From NCBI RefSeq assembly GCF_900182635.1, contig NZ_FXTD01000007.1, positions 62,001-126,000 of the forward strand: 64,000 bases of DNA, in the 5' to 3' direction. The stretch is from Halorubrum cibi. GTDB lineage: Archaea; Halobacteriota; Halobacteria; Halobacteriales; Haloferacaceae. Both the position numbers and the translations under genes were made by a program. Position 1 is the first letter of the stretch, and each line of letters begins with the position of its first letter. The notes beneath the pieces are model-generated. The model searched no databases and had not been told where the DNA came from. It saw only the letters and a list, made by a program, of their open reading frames with translations. Shown here piece after piece: positions 44,942 through 63,927 of the stretch.

Positions 44942-46306
44942 TCAGAGCCAACCGAGACTGACGAGTAGTCCGAGCAGTACGAGTGCGGCAAGCATGACTA
45001 CGCCGCCGGTGAGCAGTGTATTCTCCATGGCTTTCTCGTAGAACGGCATCGCGTCGTATTGGTCTTGGAACGCGTCTCGATTCGTCTCGTCGTAGAAGTA
45101 CTTCGTTTTGAGCGCGAACCGGTCGGTCACCGCACAGCCGGTACAGACTGGTGTTCCTTCCATCCGCTCGGATTTGATATGCGAGTCGCAGTTGATACTC
45201 CCACAGTTCGCACAAAACGTGTAGGTGGCGTCCGTCCCGGCGGTGTCACAGTGAACGCACCGGTGGATGCCGTCTTCACTGGTGACACGTGAGGGCCCGG
45301 CTGCGAAATATTCGTACGGATACGAGTATTCACCGAGGTCGGTCCTGTGCCGGACTTGTGGTAGGTATACCGGTTCGATCGATTGGACGGACACGTCGGA
45401 GCGGTTCGGTTCGCAGGTTTTGGTGTACGTGACGTTGTTGTCGCCCGTGTAGGAGACGGTCGTCGTGTGGTGATCGCGGAGCCGTTCGACTGCCCACTCC
45501 TTGTACTCGGTCTGCGTCTGCCCGAACCGACGCTCCTCAATCGTGTCGAACTTGGTATCGAATTGATCCGTATCGAGGGCAACCGTCGCGTTGAGATTTT
45601 CCACCACGAGGTTCGACACGTCACCCGACGCGGTGCGTGGCTGGCCGCGCTCTGCGTGGACGACGAACCGAGACCGGTCGTTGATCCGATGAACCACGCC
45701 GACCGACGTCTCGAAGATCGCGTTCGTGTCCGCCGTTACGGCGACGACCGGGCGAAACGTGACTTCCGAGTACGGGTCGGGAATGTCTGCGGAATCGATG
45801 TTATCGATATCGCGGAACGCTGCCGTGACGGGGGCGGCCACTGCCGTCGCCGGATCGTACGGGCGGAGCGTCTCGTCGCACAGGATTTCGATCCGGCCGT
45901 TGTACAGATCCAACCCGATATCGTCAGCAATCTCACGGAGGTCTTCCCCGTCGATCAGTTCGATCGGATACGGGTCGTCGTTTCGTTCGAGTCGCTCGGC
46001 GTACTCGATCGCTGGGCTAGTGAACCGGCCAGTCGTCGCCACCATCCCGCGCTTCGCCCCGTCGAACTCGAACGTCGCAATCGCCGAGTGAAGTTTCTGT
46101 ACGACCGGCCGCCCCACCGTCCCGGTGTGCTTACACTCGACGACGACTCCGTGGCGCGTCCCGTCGACGACCTCTTCCATGAGGATGTCCCGCCCCTCAT
46201 CGGCGGTCCGCTCGGCTTGGCGGACGTTCTCGTACCCGAGGTTCCGGAACACGTCCTCCATCACGTCCTCGAACTCGAACCCGGACAGGTCATCGAGAAC
46301 CGGCAT
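44942..46306 (-). CDS. Mrr-type endonuclease with zinc ribbons and membrane tail
   Basis: A 454-residue protein. The N-terminal PD-(D/E)XK domain has DEGRDILMEEV, VVECKHTG (D...ExK) and then MVATTGRFTSPA. A middle domain is unrecognised. It is followed by a pair of zinc sites (CVHCDTAG, CANCGSINCDSH and CTGCAVTD) and one C-terminal membrane helix near 430-452. Mrr nucleases usually are soluble; membrane anchoring is uncommon and would place the nuclease at the cytoplasmic face, where DNA enters. It lies 128 bases upstream of the ribbon-helix-helix gene. Confidence 0.8.
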   Translation of the reverse strand: MPVLDDLSGFEFEDVMEDVFRNLGYENVRQAERTADEGRDILMEEVVDGTRHGVVVECKHTGTVGRPVVQKLHSAIATFEFDGAKRGMVATTGRFTSPAIEYAERLERNDDPYPIELIDGEDLREIADDIGLDLYNGRIEILCDETLRPYDPATAVAAPVTAAFRDIDNIDSADIPDPYSEVTFRPVVAVTADTNAIFETSVGVVHRINDRSRFVVHAERGQPRTASGDVSNLVVENLNATVALDTDQFDTKFDTIEERRFGQTQTEYKEWAVERLRDHHTTTVSYTGDNNVTYTKTCEPNRSDVSVQSIEPVYLPQVRHRTDLGEYSYPYEYFAAGPSRVTSEDGIHRCVHCDTAGTDATYTFCANCGSINCDSHIKSERMEGTPVCTGCAVTDRFALKTKYFYDETNRDAFQDQYDAMPFYEKAMENTLLTGGVVMLAALVLLGLLVSLGWL

Positions 46307-49236: not shown

Positions 49237-49605
49237 CTACGTCTCCTCGTCGCTCAGGTCGGGCAACTCCTCAGCCCACCCGCTATTCTGAGCGTACCAA
49301 TCATCACTATATGAGGAAGCTACCGTCTCTACCCCAATGAAGGCAGCCGTCGCTGCTGCGATGCGGTCGTCTTTCGTGGCTGCCCAATACGGTTCCTTGT
49401 GACGAACGAGGCCCGCAACTTCAAGCCGGTTCATTGTCGGTCCAACACTCCCACGCGGGACCCCTGTTTCCTCTGCCAATTCCGCTGGCGTGTATCCCAC
49501 GGTCGGTGTCGTCAACAGGAACTCCAACAATCGCCTCGCGTTGGTCCCCTCTGACAGGTCAACGCGTGGGTTTCCGGGTTCGTGTGTTTCGAAATCGACC
49601 GGCAT
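49237..49605 (-). CDS. Winged-helix protein, likely antitoxin-regulator
   Basis: A 122-residue MarR-like winged-helix protein. The helix-turn-helix is GYTPAELAEETGVPRGSVGPTMNRLEVAGLV, followed by a wing with HKEPYWAA. Haloarchaea often pair such a protein with a PemK/MazF toxin gene immediately downstream. Here the toxin is reduced to 18 codons, so the regulator is an orphan. It probably bound its own promoter. Confidence 0.8.
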   Translation of the reverse strand: MPVDFETHEPGNPRVDLSEGTNARRLLEFLLTTPTVGYTPAELAEETGVPRGSVGPTMNRLEVAGLVRHKEPYWAATKDDRIAAATAAFIGVETVASSYSDDWYAQNSGWAEELPDLSDEET

Positions 49606-49726: not shown

Positions 49727-50509
49727 TTATTTCGTATCAGATTCCGTTCCGACCTTCTCGATGAACTCCTCAGCATCTAGGTCGAGCACCAGAGGGAACT
49801 TTCGACCAATCCCTTTCTGCCCTCCTTCGACGTTATATTCGTCAGCGAACTTTTTGGTGACGCGGTACCACGGTGCCTGATCGATCCGTTCGCTGATTTT
49901 CACAGGCTGGTTAAGTTTCGCACTTGGTGTGCGCCCTTCGACGATTACTACATCGTCATGTTTTGGCGTTCCCGCCGCTGCTAACCGTTTTGTATGCGCG
50001 TTCGCAGGGAACTCCTGTAGCGCTTCATGATACTCCTCTCCCTCTAGCTTGGAGAGGTCATGAACCGCTTCTACGGTCATATACCCATACAGAAACCGGT
50101 TGACGTTTGAGTCAGTCTCGTTCTCTTTGACGCCTGTGTAAAAGCCGAGAACGTCTGTCTCCTCAGATGATCCGAAGTTGTCGATGAGTGTACTTCCTTT
50201 CCCACCGCCGCCGCGCCGGTCTCCGAATGTCATCGCTTCGAAGTTGGGGTCGTGATGAACCGGATGCGACTCGATCTCAGCAGGGTCGTCGATCCAATCA
50301 CTATCTCCTCCTTTGGGACTAAGCGCTGTCACATAGTTGGCTGCGGTGCCACCTCGGTGATCGAGGTCGAAAGTTCCGTACGTCAGGGTCTCGCTCGTGG
50401 GATATGACTCCGGAATCGGAATGTAATCGAAGTATCCCTCTTCAGTGAGTTGTAGCTTCGGCCTAAGATGCTCCGAATCGGCTCCAACACCGACGAGGAC
50501 AACAGCCAT
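49727..50509 (-). CDS. Nmad3-like putative nucleotide-modification protein
   Basis: A 260-residue protein with a start like Nmad3 (nucleotide modification associated domain 3): VVLVGVGADS...LTEEGYFDYIPIPES and TYGTFDLDHRGG, ending with GTPKHDDVVIVEGR and a helical tail. The domain was predicted from gene neighbourhoods rich in DNA or RNA base-modification enzymes. I identify it from motif pattern, not from a search. It starts one base from the end of the Nmad2-like gene, so the two are translated as a unit. No other modification enzyme is adjacent. Confidence 0.65.
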   Translation of the reverse strand: MAVVLVGVGADSEHLRPKLQLTEEGYFDYIPIPESYPTSETLTYGTFDLDHRGGTAANYVTALSPKGGDSDWIDDPAEIESHPVHHDPNFEAMTFGDRRGGGGKGSTLIDNFGSSEETDVLGFYTGVKENETDSNVNRFLYGYMTVEAVHDLSKLEGEEYHEALQEFPANAHTKRLAAAGTPKHDDVVIVEGRTPSAKLNQPVKISERIDQAPWYRVTKKFADEYNVEGGQKGIGRKFPLVLDLDAEEFIEKVGTESDTK

Positions 50510-51372
50510 CAGACGATCTCTTGAAGAGAATCGACTATCGTATCTCCGCTCCGATCATCGTCATATGCGCGAGTGCCCTGCCCGCCACCGTATCGGTCTG
50601 GCCCATTTCCGAGGGTCCAATACAATGCTGGCTCGTTCCAACTTACCCAATTAGCGGGCGTGGACACAAATTTGAGGCGGTTGGGGTTGAGGTCCTCGTG
50701 ATACACGTGGTCGTATTCCTGGTTGACTGTTTCCGAGCACCCACAAGAGGAAGTCCCAGACCCAGAAACGTGGTCATGCTCCGGATAGGGTGCATCTGTT
50801 CCAACGACTTCTCCATCTTCAACCACCGCGTGGCAATCTCCGTACTTTCGTGCCCAAGCAGAATCATCGTCTGGGTCGGTTGAGATTCGTGGTTTCCACA
50901 CAGATTCTTCTTGCTCAATTAGGAATCGACCATAGTCTTCCATGTCTCGAAAGGCGTGCGTGACTAAGGCGACATTTACAAGCCATCGATGCTTCGTCTC
51001 TGCCCCCTTGGGTTTGTCTGAGCCGCCTTTCCCCGCAGTAGTGAATATGAATAGCGGTTGTGACGGTCGAAGTACTCCGGACTCATGTTCTTCAAAATAG
51101 TCGAAAAAGTGCTCTTGGCGCATGTCGTGCTTACAGCAAGCAAGCGACCAGAATCCACCCCGGTACGCTGGTGAACTGGCTGTCTGTACGTGGCCACTGT
51201 CTCGCGTGTAGTTGATCGATGATGCGGGATAGATTCTCCCATTCACTGTCGACTTCTCGAAGGGTTCAAGCTCGCTGTCGAGGTTCTCAACCAATCCGTC
51301 TAGGTGCTCAACTAGATCTTCCCGCGTAGTGATGACTTCTTTTTGCCCGTGATTTGGTATTTGCTGTGACAT
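50509..51372 (-). CDS. Nmad2-like putative nucleotide-modification protein
   Basis: A 287-residue protein with an Nmad2-like pattern: INYTRDSGHVQTASSP, then WSLACCKHDMR (compare LAICKPxIR), a phrase KHRWLVNVALVTHAFRDMEDYGRF, then KYGDCHAV and VYHEDLNPNRLKFVS. Nmad2 and Nmad3 genes occur next to each other in several bacteria and phages. It is the first gene of the pair, with its own TATA and palindrome upstream. Catalysis is unknown. Confidence 0.65.
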   Translation of the reverse strand: MSQQIPNHGQKEVITTREDLVEHLDGLVENLDSELEPFEKSTVNGRIYPASSINYTRDSGHVQTASSPAYRGGFWSLACCKHDMRQEHFFDYFEEHESGVLRPSQPLFIFTTAGKGGSDKPKGAETKHRWLVNVALVTHAFRDMEDYGRFLIEQEESVWKPRISTDPDDDSAWARKYGDCHAVVEDGEVVGTDAPYPEHDHVSGSGTSSCGCSETVNQEYDHVYHEDLNPNRLKFVSTPANWVSWNEPALYWTLGNGPDRYGGGQGTRAYDDDRSGDTIVDSLQEIV

Positions 51373-51377
51373 ATAGT

Positions 51378-51390
51378 GGACATTATGTCC
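51378..51390. promoter_or_regulatory. Palindrome GGACATTATGTCC before the Nmad pair
   Basis: A perfect inverted repeat of six-base arms around a central T lies between the TATA-like stretch (TTTATTATAG on the minus strand, 51391-51401) and the ATG at 51372. At this site a bound repressor would block a leaderless transcript. The regulator is unknown; the winged-helix protein at 49237 is a candidate. Confidence 0.55.
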
Positions 51391-51401
51391 CTATAATAAA
51401 A
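51391..51401 (-). promoter_or_regulatory. TATA-like element for the Nmad pair
   Basis: On the minus strand, TTTTATTATAG lies about 24 bases before the ATG at 51372, the distance expected of a haloarchaeal TATA box for a leaderless mRNA. Confidence 0.55.
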
Positions 51402-56271: not shown

Positions 56272-58155
56272 TCAGTTACCGTGTCTGGTGACGCAGTATG
56301 GGAGGCCCTTCACTTCAACCGCCTCTACATCCGGAGCTTTCACGACGGCTTGTCCTTTGCCGAAGTTCGGAAGATCTTTCTTGAACTCGGAAGGGATGGA
56401 CGGCACGTCATCGACGACCTCCGCCTTCAGTCCAAGAAAGATGTTCGTATTGATTTGCTTGATCACGTCGTCGTCAACGTCATCCGGATTCTGTGTGATG
56501 AGACACAGTCCAAGCTTGTACTTCCGGCCCTGCTTGACGGCGACACGCGCCCGTCGGAGAATGTATTCTTCGCGGAGGCTGCTCGCACTCGCCAGGTAAT
56601 TGTGCGCTTCGTCAACCGCGACGAGCATCGGCGTGTCACGAACTGCCGGATCAACCTGATAATCATCGATTTTGTTCTCGATGATGTACGAGAGGATCGA
56701 CAGTACAGTGAGGCTCTCTTTCCCGCCGTTGAGGTGACTCGTTGGGATCACCGTCACCTGCCCTTCGCGGAACACCGTATCAGAGATGTCCGGGAGGAAC
56801 GCAGTTCCCTGATCGAACACCTGCCGGAACGTGTCACGGTCGACACGCCGATTCACTGCACTCCACGTTCCCCCCGCAATGTTGTTCTCCTCGCGGAGCC
56901 GGCTCTCATCGTAATCGTGCTCGTCAAGGAACTCGAGGAAATCAACGTACTTCGGACGGTCCACGGAGCGGTCAGGGTAGCCACCCTGCGAATCGAAGCA
57001 CGAGAAGTACGCGTTGATACAGTCTTCGATTGCGCCGCGTGTTACTTCGGTCGGCGTGTACGGCATCAGCATTTCAGGCCGGCCACGAACGATCTCGAAG
57101 GGAATCGAGAGCTCACGGCTCTCCATCGTCGATGGCGCATTCGTGCCGGCAACTTGCGGGACGAACACATTGAGGTCGTCGACACCGCCGTGTTTGATGT
57201 TGTGCCGGCGAAGTTCCTGCTGTATCGCGTCATCGTTCACGACAGCGTCGTTGTCCTCGCGCATCTCCCAGTACTCGTTTTCGGGGTCGATGATGACGAG
57301 ATTGAGCCGTCGCTGTTCTTCTTCACCTGTATCGTGATGGCGAATCGGATAGCGCTTCTCAGAGACGAACTGTCGCAACACGTTCTTCGTGAAGTGGGTC
57401 TTCCCCTTCCCGGTCGAGCCCGCAACGAGAGCGTGTCTGAACACGGCGGGTTCATCGTCTTCAACGTCTCCCGTCTCCCGATCGATCCCGGGGTTGCTGA
57501 GGTAGTATGGGAAGTTCTCGTTGTTCACGGTCATCGGCTCGCCGCCGACAGAGAGCCACCCAGTAAAGATTCCCTCGCCCGGAATGTTCAGTCCGGTTCG
57601 GAGGCAGTCTTCATCACGAGCAAGCCGTGCTGGGGAGTTCGGTTTCGGAATCCGATTGACAATGCCGCTCTCAATGTCATCCGACCCCACGTTCTTGAGA
57701 ATCGCTAGCGGCTCCAACTCTGCGACTTGGACGTACTCTGACTCGTCGAGTTCAACATGCGCGCTGATCTGGTTGTGAGCGTCGGATTTGTCGTCGAGAT
57801 CGGTGTACGGCTCGTAGCGCAGCGAATCGGTTACTGCGAACAACTCGCTACCATCGTCCGGGTACGGAATCTGTACGTAATCGCCCAGCCGGATTCCCTC
57901 TCTTGCGCCCGTTCGAATGAACGCGTTCACTTGGTAGTCCCGTCTGCTGACGTGGATCTCCTCACTTGCGAGGACGTGGCCGAGTTCGTCATCAGCGGGT
58001 GTGGACACGCCACTCGGGACCGTTCGCTCCGGCACTTCAGTACCGTCAGGCTCGGTGTCCGTCGCACCTGGTGTGTCGGTTGGTGTCTGTTCAGACTCCT
58101 CGGAGTCGTCTGCGACCGGGTCGTTGTCGAGAATGTCGTCGATGTTGTCACTCAT
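56272..58155 (-). CDS. herA: HerA-type DNA-translocating ATPase
   Basis: A 627-residue HerA/FtsK-superfamily ATPase. An acidic N-terminal tail of 60 residues is followed by a HAS-barrel-like domain, then Walker A GSTGKGKT at 246-253, VIIDPENEYW, Walker B LVAVDEAHNYL, and GLCLITQNPDDVDDDVIKQINTNIF. HerA hexamers drive DNA through the attached NurA nuclease during end resection. The gene overlaps nurA by 8 bases and is the last of the mre11-rad50-nurA-herA operon. Confidence 0.9.
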   Translation of the reverse strand: MSDNIDDILDNDPVADDSEESEQTPTDTPGATDTEPDGTEVPERTVPSGVSTPADDELGHVLASEEIHVSRRDYQVNAFIRTGAREGIRLGDYVQIPYPDDGSELFAVTDSLRYEPYTDLDDKSDAHNQISAHVELDESEYVQVAELEPLAILKNVGSDDIESGIVNRIPKPNSPARLARDEDCLRTGLNIPGEGIFTGWLSVGGEPMTVNNENFPYYLSNPGIDRETGDVEDDEPAVFRHALVAGSTGKGKTHFTKNVLRQFVSEKRYPIRHHDTGEEEQRRLNLVIIDPENEYWEMREDNDAVVNDDAIQQELRRHNIKHGGVDDLNVFVPQVAGTNAPSTMESRELSIPFEIVRGRPEMLMPYTPTEVTRGAIEDCINAYFSCFDSQGGYPDRSVDRPKYVDFLEFLDEHDYDESRLREENNIAGGTWSAVNRRVDRDTFRQVFDQGTAFLPDISDTVFREGQVTVIPTSHLNGGKESLTVLSILSYIIENKIDDYQVDPAVRDTPMLVAVDEAHNYLASASSLREEYILRRARVAVKQGRKYKLGLCLITQNPDDVDDDVIKQINTNIFLGLKAEVVDDVPSIPSEFKKDLPNFGKGQAVVKAPDVEAVEVKGLPYCVTRHGN

Positions 58156-59428
58156 AGCTTCGGGAATCTTCGAGGTGGCTCCAACGGCCGTCGCGGTTAT
58201 AGTCGAACGCCGACTCGACCGTTTGGAGCGCGTCGCGGATCGTTTCGCGGTTGTCGGGACTGATGCGTGCGATGCGGTCGGCGCGCGCGACGGCTCGCGG
58301 CACGTCGCTTTGACGGGCGATTTCTTTGAGCGCTTTCAGGAGGATCTGCTCTCGACGCTCCTCATCAGTGAGGAACAGTACGGGCGTCTCGATTCGGAAC
58401 ACGTTCCCTGTTTTTGGTGTGCGGACATACGCGAACGCACGCCGGTACGCGTCCGGTTCACCGTGGCTGAGTTCATCAGACACGGCTGTCAGCAGATCGA
58501 ACGAGTTGCCCCGGAGTTCGACGTCTGTTTGGACGAACCAGGAGGTGTACGTGAGGTGGTCAAGGCTGTCATCGCGGAGCACTTCCCCAATGAACTGGTG
58601 ATCGCGGAGCCACGGGACGTCGTGAAGCGTTCCGTGTGGCCCCCGGAGATCGTGTTGTGTGATCTTCGTTCTGAGTGAGTCTGTGAGCTCACCCATTGAG
58701 GAGGTCTTCACGACGCCCAACACAGGCACATGGCGTTCAAAACACGCATCGACAACTGCGACGTAGTTCTCGATGACGTCAGTGGGAAGATCCCAGTTGC
58801 CGATCGGTGCGCCTCGTCCGGCACGGTCGAGCAGCGTCCAATAGATGACGCTGAGCGGGTACACAGAGCCGTCGAGGAACAGTGGCCCGTCGACCACGTC
58901 GAGACACCGCCGTGCGTGCTTCCCCTCCGCAAGCCGCTGTACGGTGGACGTCAAAATCGAGGTGACGTTCGCCCGCTGACGCATCTCGGGAATGCGAATG
59001 ATTTCGCCTTCGACACTCCCGCGCTCGGTCTGTTCATGGTGGAGCGTCACATCGTCGTCTTCGAGGTACACCCCAGTGACAACTGTTCCTCGCCGCTCGG
59101 CACTTCGATCGCTGTCAGCGCCGCTCACCCCGAGTTTTGCGTGTGCTGTGTCGACGACGAGTCCGTTGTTGTATTCCAATGGCCGGGTCGTACTGGCATC
59201 AACACCGTATGTCGGCTCGGTCCACGGGTCGTCAGTCCATGTCCCGAGCTCCGCCTTGCGAGTCTTGAAGTACTCTGGCTCGCCGATCGGTTCGACCGTT
59301 CCGCCTTCATGCCCGAGGAGGCCGAACAGTTCGCGGGCGTGTGCGGCCTGATCATCCACTTCGCGCGGGATGCCAGCATCAACGCGTTCGGCGAGCTGTC
59401 GTACCACGTCGAAAGCGCGTTCGTCCAT
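58148..59428 (-). CDS. nurA: NurA 5'-3' nuclease
   Basis: A 426-residue NurA-family nuclease. The RNase H-like core has YGVDAST (first metal Asp), VVDGPLFLDGSVYP (second Asp in LFLDGS), and GVVKTS. Later motifs are HDLRGPHG and FVQTDVELRG. NurA and HerA together resect DNA ends to make 3' tails for RadA. The gene begins where rad50 stops and ends within herA, showing tight coupling. Confidence 0.85.
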   Translation of the reverse strand: MDERAFDVVRQLAERVDAGIPREVDDQAAHARELFGLLGHEGGTVEPIGEPEYFKTRKAELGTWTDDPWTEPTYGVDASTTRPLEYNNGLVVDTAHAKLGVSGADSDRSAERRGTVVTGVYLEDDDVTLHHEQTERGSVEGEIIRIPEMRQRANVTSILTSTVQRLAEGKHARRCLDVVDGPLFLDGSVYPLSVIYWTLLDRAGRGAPIGNWDLPTDVIENYVAVVDACFERHVPVLGVVKTSSMGELTDSLRTKITQHDLRGPHGTLHDVPWLRDHQFIGEVLRDDSLDHLTYTSWFVQTDVELRGNSFDLLTAVSDELSHGEPDAYRRAFAYVRTPKTGNVFRIETPVLFLTDEERREQILLKALKEIARQSDVPRAVARADRIARISPDNRETIRDALQTVESAFDYNRDGRWSHLEDSRSYE

Positions 59429-62400
59429 TTACTCGTCACCGGGGATGCGTCCACCTCGATGTACGTCAACTCTACTGGCGTTCGTATCTTCGTCGATTGA
59501 GACTTCGATCTCGTGTTCAGCCCCCTGAATAAGTCGCTCGTCATGGGAGACAACGATCACTTGCGGGACGTCCCACTCGGAGATGCTGTCAAGCATCTGT
59601 TCGAGACGCCCGATGTGGCCCTTATCGAGGAACGTCGTCGGCTCATCGAGGATGAACGGCGGGAGGCGACCGCTGTCGCCCTCGCGCATCTCGGCGATGA
59701 GTTTGTAGATGCCGGCTCGGAGCGCGAGATTGACGATGGCACGTTCCCCGCCGCTGGCGTTACTCGGGTGTTCGAGCGTCCCGTCGTCACGAAGCAACTG
59801 AATCGCGTATGGCGTGCCATCGGGCCCCTCCTCAAGAATGCGCACCTGCTGGTAGCTACTGTTCTTGTAGATGTCGCTGAAGATGTCGTTCGTGTATTGG
59901 TTGATGTAGGCGAGGTACTGCTCACGGAGGTCCGCCTTCGTACTTCGATACACCGCCATCATGCGATCGAACTCGTCAGACCGCTCTTCGGCCCACTTGC
60001 GCTTTTCTTCCTCGAGTGCGAGCTGGTCGCGGAAGTACTCTAGATTCTCAAGGTCGTTTACAAGCACTGTCCGCGCTTCCTTGAGCGAGTCTAGTTCCGC
60101 GGTCAGTTCCTCAAGCGTGGCCTCGCGCTCCTCGATCTTCTGTGTCGCCGTTTCCAACTGTTCTCGCTGGGCTTCGACGTCGATCGATCCGAGTTCATCG
60201 CTGAGCGCATCGATTTCCTCCTCAACGTCAGCAATCTGCCCGTTGAGGGTCTCGATCGTGTCCTGTGCGTGCCCGATATCCTTCTGGTGGCCTTTGATTG
60301 TGGTCTCCAACTCGGCGATCGCTTCGTATGCGTCAACCACGTCGGCAACGAGTTCGCGCTGTTCCGTTGCGGTGTCAACTGCTTGCTGAGCGTCTTCGAG
60401 GGCTGCGTCGGCCTCAGCAACTGCGTCGCGTTGGGCTTCAATCTGCTCGTCGTATTCGTCGAGCTCTGCGTTCGCGTCAGCGATTTCCGCTTCGAGTTCT
60501 TCTTGTTCAGCTTCGAGATCAGCAAGCTCATCCGCAAGGTCATCCCGTTCCTGCCGACGTTTCTCAACGGTTTCGAAGGCCGCCACAACCTCTTTGCCGT
60601 CCTCAATCTCCGCTTCGAGCGACTCAATATCCGATTCGAGGTCAGCGATCGTGTGTTCGAGGTCGTCGACCTCCGACTCCGCAGATTTGAGCTTGGCCTC
60701 AGCGTCGGCGAGCTCGGACTCTGCCTCGGCATGATCGTCCTGTAACGACTCACGCTCGTCTTCGAGCGTACTCACGCGCTCAGCTTTTACGTTGACCGTG
60801 TCGTCACGGAAGCCCCGCAGTTCAATCGCATCTTCACGACAATCGTCGAGAGCGTCTCGCCGGTCGACGAGCGCATCGCGTTCTTCTCTCGCCTCGGCCA
60901 GTTCGGCTTCTACCTCAGTGAGTTCGGCTTCGATGTCCGCGAGTTCGGACTCAACGTGAGATGGATCGACGTCTTGGCCACACTTCGGGCACGTCGCTAC
61001 TCCATCGAGTGCCTGTAGCTCCTCGCGGTCCTCCTCAAGCGTCGTTTGACGGGCCTCGAGTTCGGTGACCGTCGTGTTCGCCGTCTCGATTGCGTCCTGT
61101 ACTTCCCCTTTCGCTTCTGGGATCCGTTCGTCGATGAGGCTCTGTAGCGTGTCGCCGGATACGCTCAAATCAACGGTATCGAGGTCGGCATCGAGACTCT
61201 CAAGATCTTCCTCGAATTGATTTTCTGCCTCCGTTTTCGCCTCACGGGCGTCTTCGAGTTCCGACTCCACCTCTGCGAGGTCGTCCGACAACTGGTCTAT
61301 CTCGTCACGTGCGTCCGTGACGGCCGCTTGCGCTTCCTCGCGTGTCGTTTCGGCTGCGTCGAGAGACGCCTCAGCAGCGGCACGCTCTTCTGACAGTTCA
61401 TTTTTCTCTGTCGTCAACGCCTCAACGCGTGTGTCGACAGTCTCTCGCGTCTCGTCAGTAATTGTGTCCGGGCAGGACTCATCTGGGAGGAACTCGGTGG
61501 TTACAGCGTCTCGCGTCTCGACGGAAGCTGTAACTTCTTCCTCCGCAGCCTCAACGTCATCCGCGATGTCTCCTTTTTCCGCGAGGAGGTGGTCGAGGTC
61601 CGCTTCGAGTTCCTCTGCCTCCTCACGTAACGCATCTCGTTCGTCGATGAGCCGGTCTCGCTCCGTCTCCGCCTGGTCGAGCGTTCCCTCCCGATCTGTC
61701 TGCTCGATCTGTGCCGTCTCGACCGCGTCTTGTGCGGCACTCAGCGCCTCCTCAGCACGCTCCTCCGTCGACAGATCGGCATCTATCGGCTCTGTCGTCG
61801 ATGGGTCATCGAGCTGGTTGAGTGCCTCCTGCTTCTCGTCGATATCATCGCGGCACGTGTCGATCTCCGCTTCAGCCTCCGCAATTGCCGTCTCAGCCTC
61901 CTCAATTTCGCGCTGTTTCGTTGCTCGCTCTTCGATGAGTTCCTCGCGCTCCTCTTCTGCTTCCTCAAGCTCTGTCTGTAACTCGTCGTGATTCTCAAGC
62001 CGTTGTTCGACGTCCTCTTTCGCGTCTCGGAGCTCCTGCAGGAACTCCTCTACGTCCTCGATCTCTGCCTGTTGTTCCGAGATCTCCGCCTCCTTGTCGG
62101 CGATGGCCGCCTCGTAGCCCTCGACATCATGATCGAACCGATCGTCAATGGTCTCACGATGTTTTTTGGCTGATTGCTCATTGTCCCTCGCAATGCGACC
62201 CATCGCACGACTGGCACCCTTCGCCCGGCGTTCGTAGCGATCGATCCGATCGAGTCCGAGCAGGTCATCGATGAGTTCTGCCCGAGCATCGTCGTCAAAC
62301 AGGCTATCGACCTCGCCCTGCTGAACGTACACCGACCGGGAGAAACTGTCCTCATCCATCCCGACCACATCGACGACTTCCGAGGTGACATCACGAATCC

Positions 62401-62737
62401 CTGAGATGGGCTCCGAGAGTGCGGGCGAGTCAAGCTCTGCGGTGTTTTGCCCCTCAGTATCGATCGCCCACGTGACGGTGTACGGTGTCTCTGCCACCTC
62501 GAATGTCAACACGATCTCGCCTTCTCTCGCACCTCGCCTGACGATATCGTCGAGATTGAAATCGTTCGACCCGACGTTCCGGATATTCGAGAGGAAGAGT
62601 CCGCCGAAAATCCCCATGAGCAGTGTCGTCTTCCCGGCACCGTTCTCCCCATGGACGAGCATCGTTCCCTCGGGGAAAGCGATCGACTCGTCCTCGTAAC
62701 TCCGGATATTCTGTAGGTCTAGATCAGTGACTTTCAT
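59429..62737 (-). CDS. rad50: Rad50/SMC-like DNA repair ATPase
   Basis: An 1102-residue Rad50. Walker A is GENGAGKT at 30-37. Two long coiled coils flank the zinc hook CPKCGQ (near residue 585). The signature motif NASGGERAIV and Walker B PPFILDEPTTFLD lie at the C-terminus. Rad50 dimerises by the hook and works with Mre11 to process DNA ends. It is longer than haloarchaeal Rad50 proteins that I remember (about 890 residues). The gene overlaps mre11 by 4 bases. Confidence 0.9.
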   Translation of the reverse strand: MKVTDLDLQNIRSYEDESIAFPEGTMLVHGENGAGKTTLLMGIFGGLFLSNIRNVGSNDFNLDDIVRRGAREGEIVLTFEVAETPYTVTWAIDTEGQNTAELDSPALSEPISGIRDVTSEVVDVVGMDEDSFSRSVYVQQGEVDSLFDDDARAELIDDLLGLDRIDRYERRAKGASRAMGRIARDNEQSAKKHRETIDDRFDHDVEGYEAAIADKEAEISEQQAEIEDVEEFLQELRDAKEDVEQRLENHDELQTELEEAEEEREELIEERATKQREIEEAETAIAEAEAEIDTCRDDIDEKQEALNQLDDPSTTEPIDADLSTEERAEEALSAAQDAVETAQIEQTDREGTLDQAETERDRLIDERDALREEAEELEADLDHLLAEKGDIADDVEAAEEEVTASVETRDAVTTEFLPDESCPDTITDETRETVDTRVEALTTEKNELSEERAAAEASLDAAETTREEAQAAVTDARDEIDQLSDDLAEVESELEDAREAKTEAENQFEEDLESLDADLDTVDLSVSGDTLQSLIDERIPEAKGEVQDAIETANTTVTELEARQTTLEEDREELQALDGVATCPKCGQDVDPSHVESELADIEAELTEVEAELAEAREERDALVDRRDALDDCREDAIELRGFRDDTVNVKAERVSTLEDERESLQDDHAEAESELADAEAKLKSAESEVDDLEHTIADLESDIESLEAEIEDGKEVVAAFETVEKRRQERDDLADELADLEAEQEELEAEIADANAELDEYDEQIEAQRDAVAEADAALEDAQQAVDTATEQRELVADVVDAYEAIAELETTIKGHQKDIGHAQDTIETLNGQIADVEEEIDALSDELGSIDVEAQREQLETATQKIEEREATLEELTAELDSLKEARTVLVNDLENLEYFRDQLALEEEKRKWAEERSDEFDRMMAVYRSTKADLREQYLAYINQYTNDIFSDIYKNSSYQQVRILEEGPDGTPYAIQLLRDDGTLEHPSNASGGERAIVNLALRAGIYKLIAEMREGDSGRLPPFILDEPTTFLDKGHIGRLEQMLDSISEWDVPQVIVVSHDERLIQGAEHEIEVSIDEDTNASRVDVHRGGRIPGDE

Positions 62738-63927
62738 TCGTCAACCTCCAACGATTCGACGCCCTCCGGCGTCTCTTCCGGTCCGGCATCATCAAACGCT
62801 TCGCGCTGGGCATCACGGAGTGACTCAGCGAAGGTGTCCGCGACACGATTCACATTCGTGTCGAGTTCGTCTGCTTTCCGAACCTGCTGATCGACGTCGA
62901 GCGCAACCGTCGAAAAGTCCTCATCCGCGAGTTTCTCTTCGATGGCCCCGTCGAGCCCCTGTAGCGACATGGCCTCGATCGATTCCACGTCAAGATCGAC
63001 GCGTCCGCGGTTGTCGTCGACGCTCACGACAGCCGCACCGGATTCACGCGCCATTTGTGTCACCTCGTTTGCGGTGACCGCCGCTCGGTCGCCGCTCAAC
63101 TCGATCTTGGCCACCGCCCCCTCGAGGTCGTGTCTCTCAAGCACGTCGCGGGCATGGGTTGCCCCGTCGTCCTCACCGAATGTGATCTCAAACACCTCAA
63201 ACGGCCGCGTCTCCAACTCAATCTGGCGGCGGTGAATCCCGCTGTTGTCGATATCTAGGAGTTGAACGACGCCCGTCTCTTCCTGATCTTTCCCGCCACG
63301 CTCTGTCGCACTCGCGTACCAGACATCAGTCCCGTCTACGACCGAACTCGCCGGTTGGTGGAGGTCGCCCAGCGCAAGCCCATCGAGTTCGATTCCGGCT
63401 CGATCAATAACCTCGGAAGCTGGGTAGACACGCCCCATTCCGTGAACAAGCGGCGTGAGGAGTTCGTGCATACACAGAATCGTCCACGCTGCCTCCGCAG
63501 GGGGTTCTTCGAGTTCTAAGTCGATATTGTCCCACACGCTCGGCCGCACGGCATCGATCCCGTACAGCGCAACCTCACCGACCATCGTGGGCTCTTTGCC
63601 AAGCCGAGCAGCAGCGCTCGTCCGCCGCAGCAGATCAAGCCACTGCTCGTCGTTTTTCCGTTCGTGATTGCCCACAATCCCGTAGAACGGAATTCCGTGT
63701 TCTTCAAGCGGTTTCAACGCATCAGCGGCCCGCATCACCGTTGGGAGCGACGGAACCGGATCGTCAAACAAGTCTCCTGTGTGAATTACGGCATCAACAT
63801 CACGATCGACTGCGACCTCAATCGCCTGCTCGAATGCGTTCGCAAAATCCTCACGTCGAATATCCGATCCATACTGTCGCTTCCCCAGATGGGTGTCACT
63901 GATGTGGAGGATACGTGTTCTAGGCAC
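62734..63927 (-). CDS. mre11: Mre11 nuclease
   Basis: A 397-residue Mre11/SbcD-like metallophosphoesterase. The metal ligands are DTHLG (Asp11, His13), GDLFDD (Asp52), GNHER (Asn87, His88), MHELLTP, and GDLHQP. A C-terminal capping and Rad50-binding part is present. It starts with GTG at 63927. It is the first gene of the four-gene operon. Mre11 trims DNA ends during repair and may respond to foreign DNA. Confidence 0.9.
   Translation of the reverse strand: MPRTRILHISDTHLGKRQYGSDIRREDFANAFEQAIEVAVDRDVDAVIHTGDLFDDPVPSLPTVMRAADALKPLEEHGIPFYGIVGNHERKNDEQWLDLLRRTSAAARLGKEPTMVGEVALYGIDAVRPSVWDNIDLELEEPPAEAAWTILCMHELLTPLVHGMGRVYPASEVIDRAGIELDGLALGDLHQPASSVVDGTDVWYASATERGGKDQEETGVVQLLDIDNSGIHRRQIELETRPFEVFEITFGEDDGATHARDVLERHDLEGAVAKIELSGDRAAVTANEVTQMARESGAAVVSVDDNRGRVDLDVESIEAMSLQGLDGAIEEKLADEDFSTVALDVDQQVRKADELDTNVNRVADTFAESLRDAQREAFDDAGPEETPEGVESLEVDE

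Follow-up and report, generated by a model that had tools for sequence, protein, structure and literature searches.

Introduction

The Nmad domains reportedly go back to a paper from 2013. For two of them, Nmad2 and Nmad3, the literature that we searched gives no tested function, nor does it contain biochemical data on nucleotide modification by any Nmad3 member. An NMAD-containing defense system has been highlighted by DefensePredictor, where it is predicted and not validated (PMC13092281, Fig. 6F). Readers of modified bases provide another point of reference. EVE proteins of archaea are partners of an operon that combines DUF499, methylase, and helicase genes, the same type as the G174 operon described below (PMC7641849). 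Among type-2 BREX-related systems, ASCH/PUA or RAMA readers occur as fusions with some of the DUF3780 proteins (PMC12839542). Here, we compare with these systems a pair of genes, A and B, found in a window of haloarchaeal DNA, by which we mean the whole stretch of 64,000 nucleotides that was analyzed. The window lies on contig G000:C7 of a source genome of 3.18 Mb in 35 contigs.

Results

Gene A (50509-51372, minus strand) is the first gene of the pair, a 287 aa open reading frame that appears to be a divergent relative of Nmad2, carries a GGFWSLACCKHDMRQE motif, and is rich in Cys and His in its C-terminal half. Gene B (49727-50509, minus strand) is the second and encodes a 260 aa protein of the Nmad3 family (Pfam PF18754, PHROG 34025). 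The stop codon of A and the start codon of B share 1 nt in the sequence TGATG, so that the coupling of the two genes described in the initial annotation holds, as does its remark on the absence of an adjacent glycosyltransferase or other modification enzyme; none is seen among the neighbors in the window. Comparison of the two closest relatives, those of Halarchaeum and G174, gives dN/dS values of 0.07 for A and 0.06 for B, which indicates that both are real genes under purifying selection.

The assignment of B to Nmad3 was borne out by the profile search. B matches PF18754 with E=2.2e-17 and 63.9 bits, above the curated gathering score of 27, and PHROG 34025 with E=1.9e-33. The motifs IPIP, HxDPxF, GD..F, and NAHxxR are invariant in B and 23 Nmad3 relatives. 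Members of the family occur in 263 of 341 haloarchaeal genomes; besides B, the source genome has a core copy (G000:C2:17998-18714). Where examined, Nmad3 is mostly a core gene outside defense loci. The tree built from Nmad3 domains separates the B proteins from this core haloarchaeal Nmad3 (100/99) and groups them with a chromosomal Nmad3 of Natrialbaceae that stands alone (99/99).

Several side observations concern the wider Nmad3 family. Core Nmad3 is represented by the source-genome copy and by L004-L033; in several loci, by eye, a hexapeptide-acyltransferase-like gene adjoins it (e.g., L078:7158-8171, L083:6967-7878), and the Natrialbaceae copy is adjoined by a different acyltransferase (L035, L036). 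One Nmad3 protein from a non-halobacterial archaeon (L074:8241-9905) has an N-terminal extension of ∼320 aa, which may reflect a fusion or a wrong start. A further relative, on the megaplasmid pHG1 of Cupriavidus necator H16 (L037:5887-6579), has a restriction endonuclease gene on one side and a toxin-antitoxin pair of the ParDE type on the other.

Gene A is more difficult to place. It has no family match in Pfam, NCBIfam, PADLOC, or PHROGs, and the Nmad2 model (PF18753) finds nothing in the whole source genome, even at E<=10; by Pfam, the call of A as Nmad2 therefore fails. We compared a profile built from six A proteins with one built from seven Nmad2 proteins and searched 711 ORFs with each. 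The Nmad2 profile, after the true Nmad2 proteins, next ranks four A genes (E 0.0026 to 0.53); the A profile, after the A genes, next ranks six Nmad2 proteins (E 1.8e-4 to 0.33). In both directions, these matches stand above every decoy. Direct alignment of the two profiles with hhalign gives a score of 38.4 (E=8e-5) over only ∼26 columns, against a maximum of 22.6 in 60 column shuffles and 29.5 among 24 natural protein families. The aligned core reads TGSSPSYxGGLWSLACCKxxMR in A and TGFAPNVxGGVCTLATCKxxIR in Nmad2. We consider it defensible to regard A as a remote relative of Nmad2, that is, a distant homologue that stands outside the Pfam family. The earlier description of A as Nmad2-like is thereby retained in the sense of remote kinship by reciprocal profile ranks and hhalign and given up as a Pfam assignment. 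We note that a bacterial Nmad2 gene on an IMG/VR contig (L049:1140-4007) belongs to a run of genes that includes MazG_C and uracil-DNA-glycosylase-like members.

A is rare and is always accompanied by Nmad3. It occurs in 5 of 391 haloarchaeal genomes from five genera, one of them Halarchaeum nitratireducens, with two copies in one genome, and in all six loci it is next to an Nmad3 gene; in G265, the two genes are divergent. Nmad2 is found in 5 of 292 haloarchaeal genomes, and in three of these five it is joined to the C-terminal side of Nmad3 in one fused protein (L043, L045, and L046, the last cut by a contig end). The gene order of A and B recurs in L073, from a non-halobacterial archaeon, where Nmad2 neighbors Nmad3. 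Genome comparison over the six loci supports the view that A and B constitute a unit. Viral contigs, searched with A and B singly and as alignments, yielded no relatives, and the same is true of phage records; one Nmad2 locus was found. Among plasmid records relatives of B were present and A was absent.

The neighborhoods of these relatives point to defense. In G174, A-B is part of an operon of uniform strand, in which a DUF499 ATPase (HmaC, 5e-90) and a DUF7680 protein are encoded ahead of the pair, and the pair itself separates a DUF1156 methylase (HmaB, 7e-57) from a PLD-helicase (3e-70). Among the 20 closest methylase loci, the slot between methylase and helicase is empty in 11, where the methylase directly abuts the helicase; it holds a cargo gene of 312-323 aa in three, a membrane-protein gene in one, and A-B in G174 alone, and four loci are without a helicase match inside the flank examined. 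As the slot is empty or variously filled in related operons, A-B is best described there as optional cargo at a variable position. The methylase-helicase slot of BREX-related operons looks like a general cargo site; the three loci in which the protein of 312-323 aa occupies it are L089, L093, and L094.

The fused form is found in similar surroundings. In G271, DrmMI (5e-95) and a DrmD/BrxHII helicase flank the Nmad3-Nmad2 fusion; the helicase is followed by DrmMII, and DrmC is upstream. In G039, the fusion comes after a DUF1156/HmaB-type methylase and an SNF2 helicase. As for other A-B loci, G108 combines a GmrSD protein with PLD genes and a Dpd/DISARM-like helicase, Halarchaeum has a GmrSD/HEC-05 protein with AbiE genes, the latter judged by sequence and family matches, and G265 has ThsB-type TIR, SLATT, and Cas4/PD-(D/E)XK genes. 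The neighbors of the pair or of its fused form include genes of the Thoeris (TIR) and CRISPR types. At a threshold of 1e-8, 67 neighbors of A-B match 145 PADLOC families, and 67 neighbors of core Nmad3, taken as a matched control, match 4; these are counts of families and not of proteins, and since several families can match one protein, the sums overstate the contrast. A and B themselves match none of the PADLOC defense family HMMs. Taken from genome comparison and a small sample of six loci, a link of A-B to defense is supported. Genes that resemble ADP-ribosylglycohydrolases by eye were also seen near an Nmad3-Nmad2 fusion and near A-B (L072:1392-2291 and L066:16693-18531).

In the source genome, the pair is located inside a stretch of ∼49-59% GC (30-56 kb of the window), and the adjoining DNA is mostly 63-72% GC. 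An Mrr-type restriction gene (Mrr_cat, 44942-46306, Pfam 8e-26) lies 3.4 kb from the pair, and its product, which has a Cys-rich region as well as a hydrophobic segment at the C terminus, is a possible Type IV nuclease. A HerA-NurA-Rad50-Mre11 cluster (56272-63927) adjoins the low-GC island. No DUF499 ATPase, N6-methylase, helicase, or helicase-nuclease is seen beside the pair in the window, and the source genome as a whole contains no N6_N4_Mtase match and no DUF1156-type methylase. It has one GmrSD gene, on another contig. No partner adjoins the pair in this genome, and the Mrr-type gene and the GmrSD gene are at most candidates for one.

We also examined the sequence directly upstream of A. 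A TATA-like box (TTATTATA, 51392-51399, minus strand), read directly from the sequence, is ∼20-27 nt upstream of the ATG of A, a position that would fit a leaderless or near-leaderless haloarchaeal transcript. A perfect palindrome (GGACATTATGTCC, 51378-51390) is 5 nt upstream of the same ATG and lies between the TATA-like box and the start codon, a location suited to a repressor. Both elements are present just as the initial annotation had them, and the palindrome may be an operator of the pair. The further claim that it is the pair's own operator fared less well: when the same 40 nt are shuffled, 7% of the resulting sequences have an equal palindrome, such a palindrome stands upstream of 3 of the 67 genes in the window (B among them), and the GGACATTATGTCC site is found upstream of none of the five other A genes. 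A role as a conserved operator is not supported. The sequence GGACATNATGTCC has one other exact copy in the genome, at a locus with an AAA ATPase gene. A MarR/IclR-type winged-helix protein of 122 aa (49237-49605, minus strand; Pfam MarR_2 E=9.2e-7) is encoded 121 nt downstream of B; this MarR-type protein is a possible regulator of the pair, a candidacy that does not imply membership in it.

Profile comparison also covered the modified-base readers EVE and ASCH. Nmad3 is weakly similar to EVE around the sequence GDxxxFY with scores of 24.8-27.7, where shuffle and decoy maxima are ∼20, over ∼30 columns and with an HHsuite probability of 8%. Nmad3 and Nmad2 are weakly similar to each other as well (26 against 19). 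A has no similarity to EVE, and ASCH, compared in the same manner, was discarded as a candidate relative when no similarity appeared. AlphaFold2 models of A and B from two-sequence alignments reached pLDDT values of 30.5 and 30.9 and are unusable. When PDB sequences were searched with A, with B, with Nmad2, and with a deeper profile of Nmad3, only chance matches and no related solved structure came up.

Discussion

The reading that we favor, and to which we extend as much belief as doubt, is that A and B are a split Nmad2+Nmad3 unit that serves as a haloarchaeal accessory cassette of DNA-targeting defense and that is likelier to read modified bases than to act as a stand-alone modifying enzyme. 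A reader module is our leading guess because of the weak EVE-like signal and because EVE, ASCH, and RAMA domains are found in the same class of operon. The split unit would move among haloarchaea as an accessory of DNA-targeting defense systems. We infer that A and B form one complex and, with less assurance, that this complex would bind a non-canonical base or nucleotide; by analogy with what is thought of the EVE/ASCH readers in the same operon class, it could then add recognition to a partner nuclease or helicase. A broader extension of the proposal, which we offer tentatively and hold to be less likely than not, is that pairs of an Nmad2-like and an Nmad3 protein would act as an interchangeable sensor, of two subunits, for modified or non-canonical DNA bases. 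Such pairs would serve several archaeal defense machineries, namely BREX-related and DISARM-like systems and possibly GmrSD and Mrr nucleases, and would be a class of readers parallel to EVE, ASCH, and RAMA.

An enzyme is the alternative nearest to the view taken in the initial annotation, which had the pair modify DNA or RNA, possibly alone. A and B would together be a two-subunit enzyme that alters a base in DNA, RNA, or the nucleotide pool, either to mark self or to damage invader DNA. The invariant polar H, D, N, H, and R residues of Nmad3 would suit catalysis, as would the CK..MR motif and the Cys/His cluster that A keeps, and the operon of the bacterial Nmad2 gene in L049, with its MazG_C and uracil-DNA-glycosylase-like genes, is consistent with this reading, as is the naming of an Nmad domain among nucleotide-modifying predicted defense domains (PMC13092281). 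On the other hand, A and B show no known catalytic motif and no match to an enzyme family in Pfam, NCBIfam, PADLOC, or PHROGs, no relative has a solved structure, no modification gene adjoins the pair in the window, and the weak EVE-like signal favors binding. We regard an enzyme as rather unlikely. The pair of the relatives is cargo of methylase-helicase defense operons and islands, and the hints lean toward a reader or accessory; the earlier claim of modification is not borne out. Taken as a whole, the earlier observation is confirmed in part and its interpretation partly supported.

A house-keeping function, for example in nucleotide or RNA metabolism, would be in keeping with the presence of core Nmad3 in 263/341 haloarchaeal genomes outside defense loci where examined, and the low-GC island around the window pair agrees with the idea that shared mobile islands merely bring such genes close to defense genes. 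The pair in G174, however, is inside the defense operon itself and the fused cousins are inside a DISARM-like locus, which exceeds loose co-location, and we judge this explanation improbable. A toxin-antitoxin or abortive-infection pair, with one toxic protein and one that neutralizes it, is brought to mind by two small overlapping genes with a patchy distribution and a location in an island. Fusion of the Nmad3 and Nmad2 domains into a single chain and the divergent arrangement in G265 led us to down-weight this reading, and the Nmad3 relatives of B also stand alone as a chromosomal gene in Natrialbaceae; we consider it very improbable.

What appears to be new is a split and highly diverged Nmad2/Nmad3 cassette tied to archaeal DNA-targeting defense. 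The fusion, the split pair, and the site inside methylase-helicase operons together make what was a vague label open to testing. With a cassette of this kind, which can be inserted into a known operon or removed from it, the empty slot offers a natural control. If A and B do read modified bases, they would represent a new archaeal way of detecting viruses with unusual DNA.

Comparison with Known Systems

Among described families, Nmad3 (PF18754) is the closest to B, which clears the curated cutoff and has the invariant residues of the family; B differs in that it belongs to a clade apart from core haloarchaeal Nmad3 and is paired with A. Nmad2 (PF18753) shares with A the motif TGxxP...GG..SLA(C/T)CK..(M/I)R and, like A, is fused or adjacent to Nmad3, whereas the Pfam model comes nowhere near detecting A, which is also longer and has a Cys/His cluster of its own. 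The DefensePredictor NMAD system (PMC13092281) agrees in that an Nmad domain is predicted in defense, and its partners from nucleotide metabolism resemble those in L049. The description does not include the split A-B module, and the Nmad family is not readable from the text. The EVE/ASCH readers of the PUA superfamily (PMC7641849, PMC7897488) resemble the pair in that standalone EVE proteins are partners of the same archaeal DUF499 operon and in the weak EVE-like GDxxxFY signature of Nmad3. They differ in that A-B is a two-protein module in which A is without an EVE signal, and any likeness of fold is tentative.

With regard to complete defense systems, DISARM (DrmD-DrmMI-DrmMII-DrmC) is approached by the DISARM-like locus of G271, within which the Nmad3-Nmad2 fusion is encoded, whereas no Drm gene was found around the pair in the window. 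The DUF499-centered BREX-related (BR)/Hma systems (PMC12839542, PMC8565338) are described without mention of Nmad in PMC12839542, and the window is without any of their core genes. In G174, by comparison, the pair is encoded within just such an operon, where it is an optional insert.
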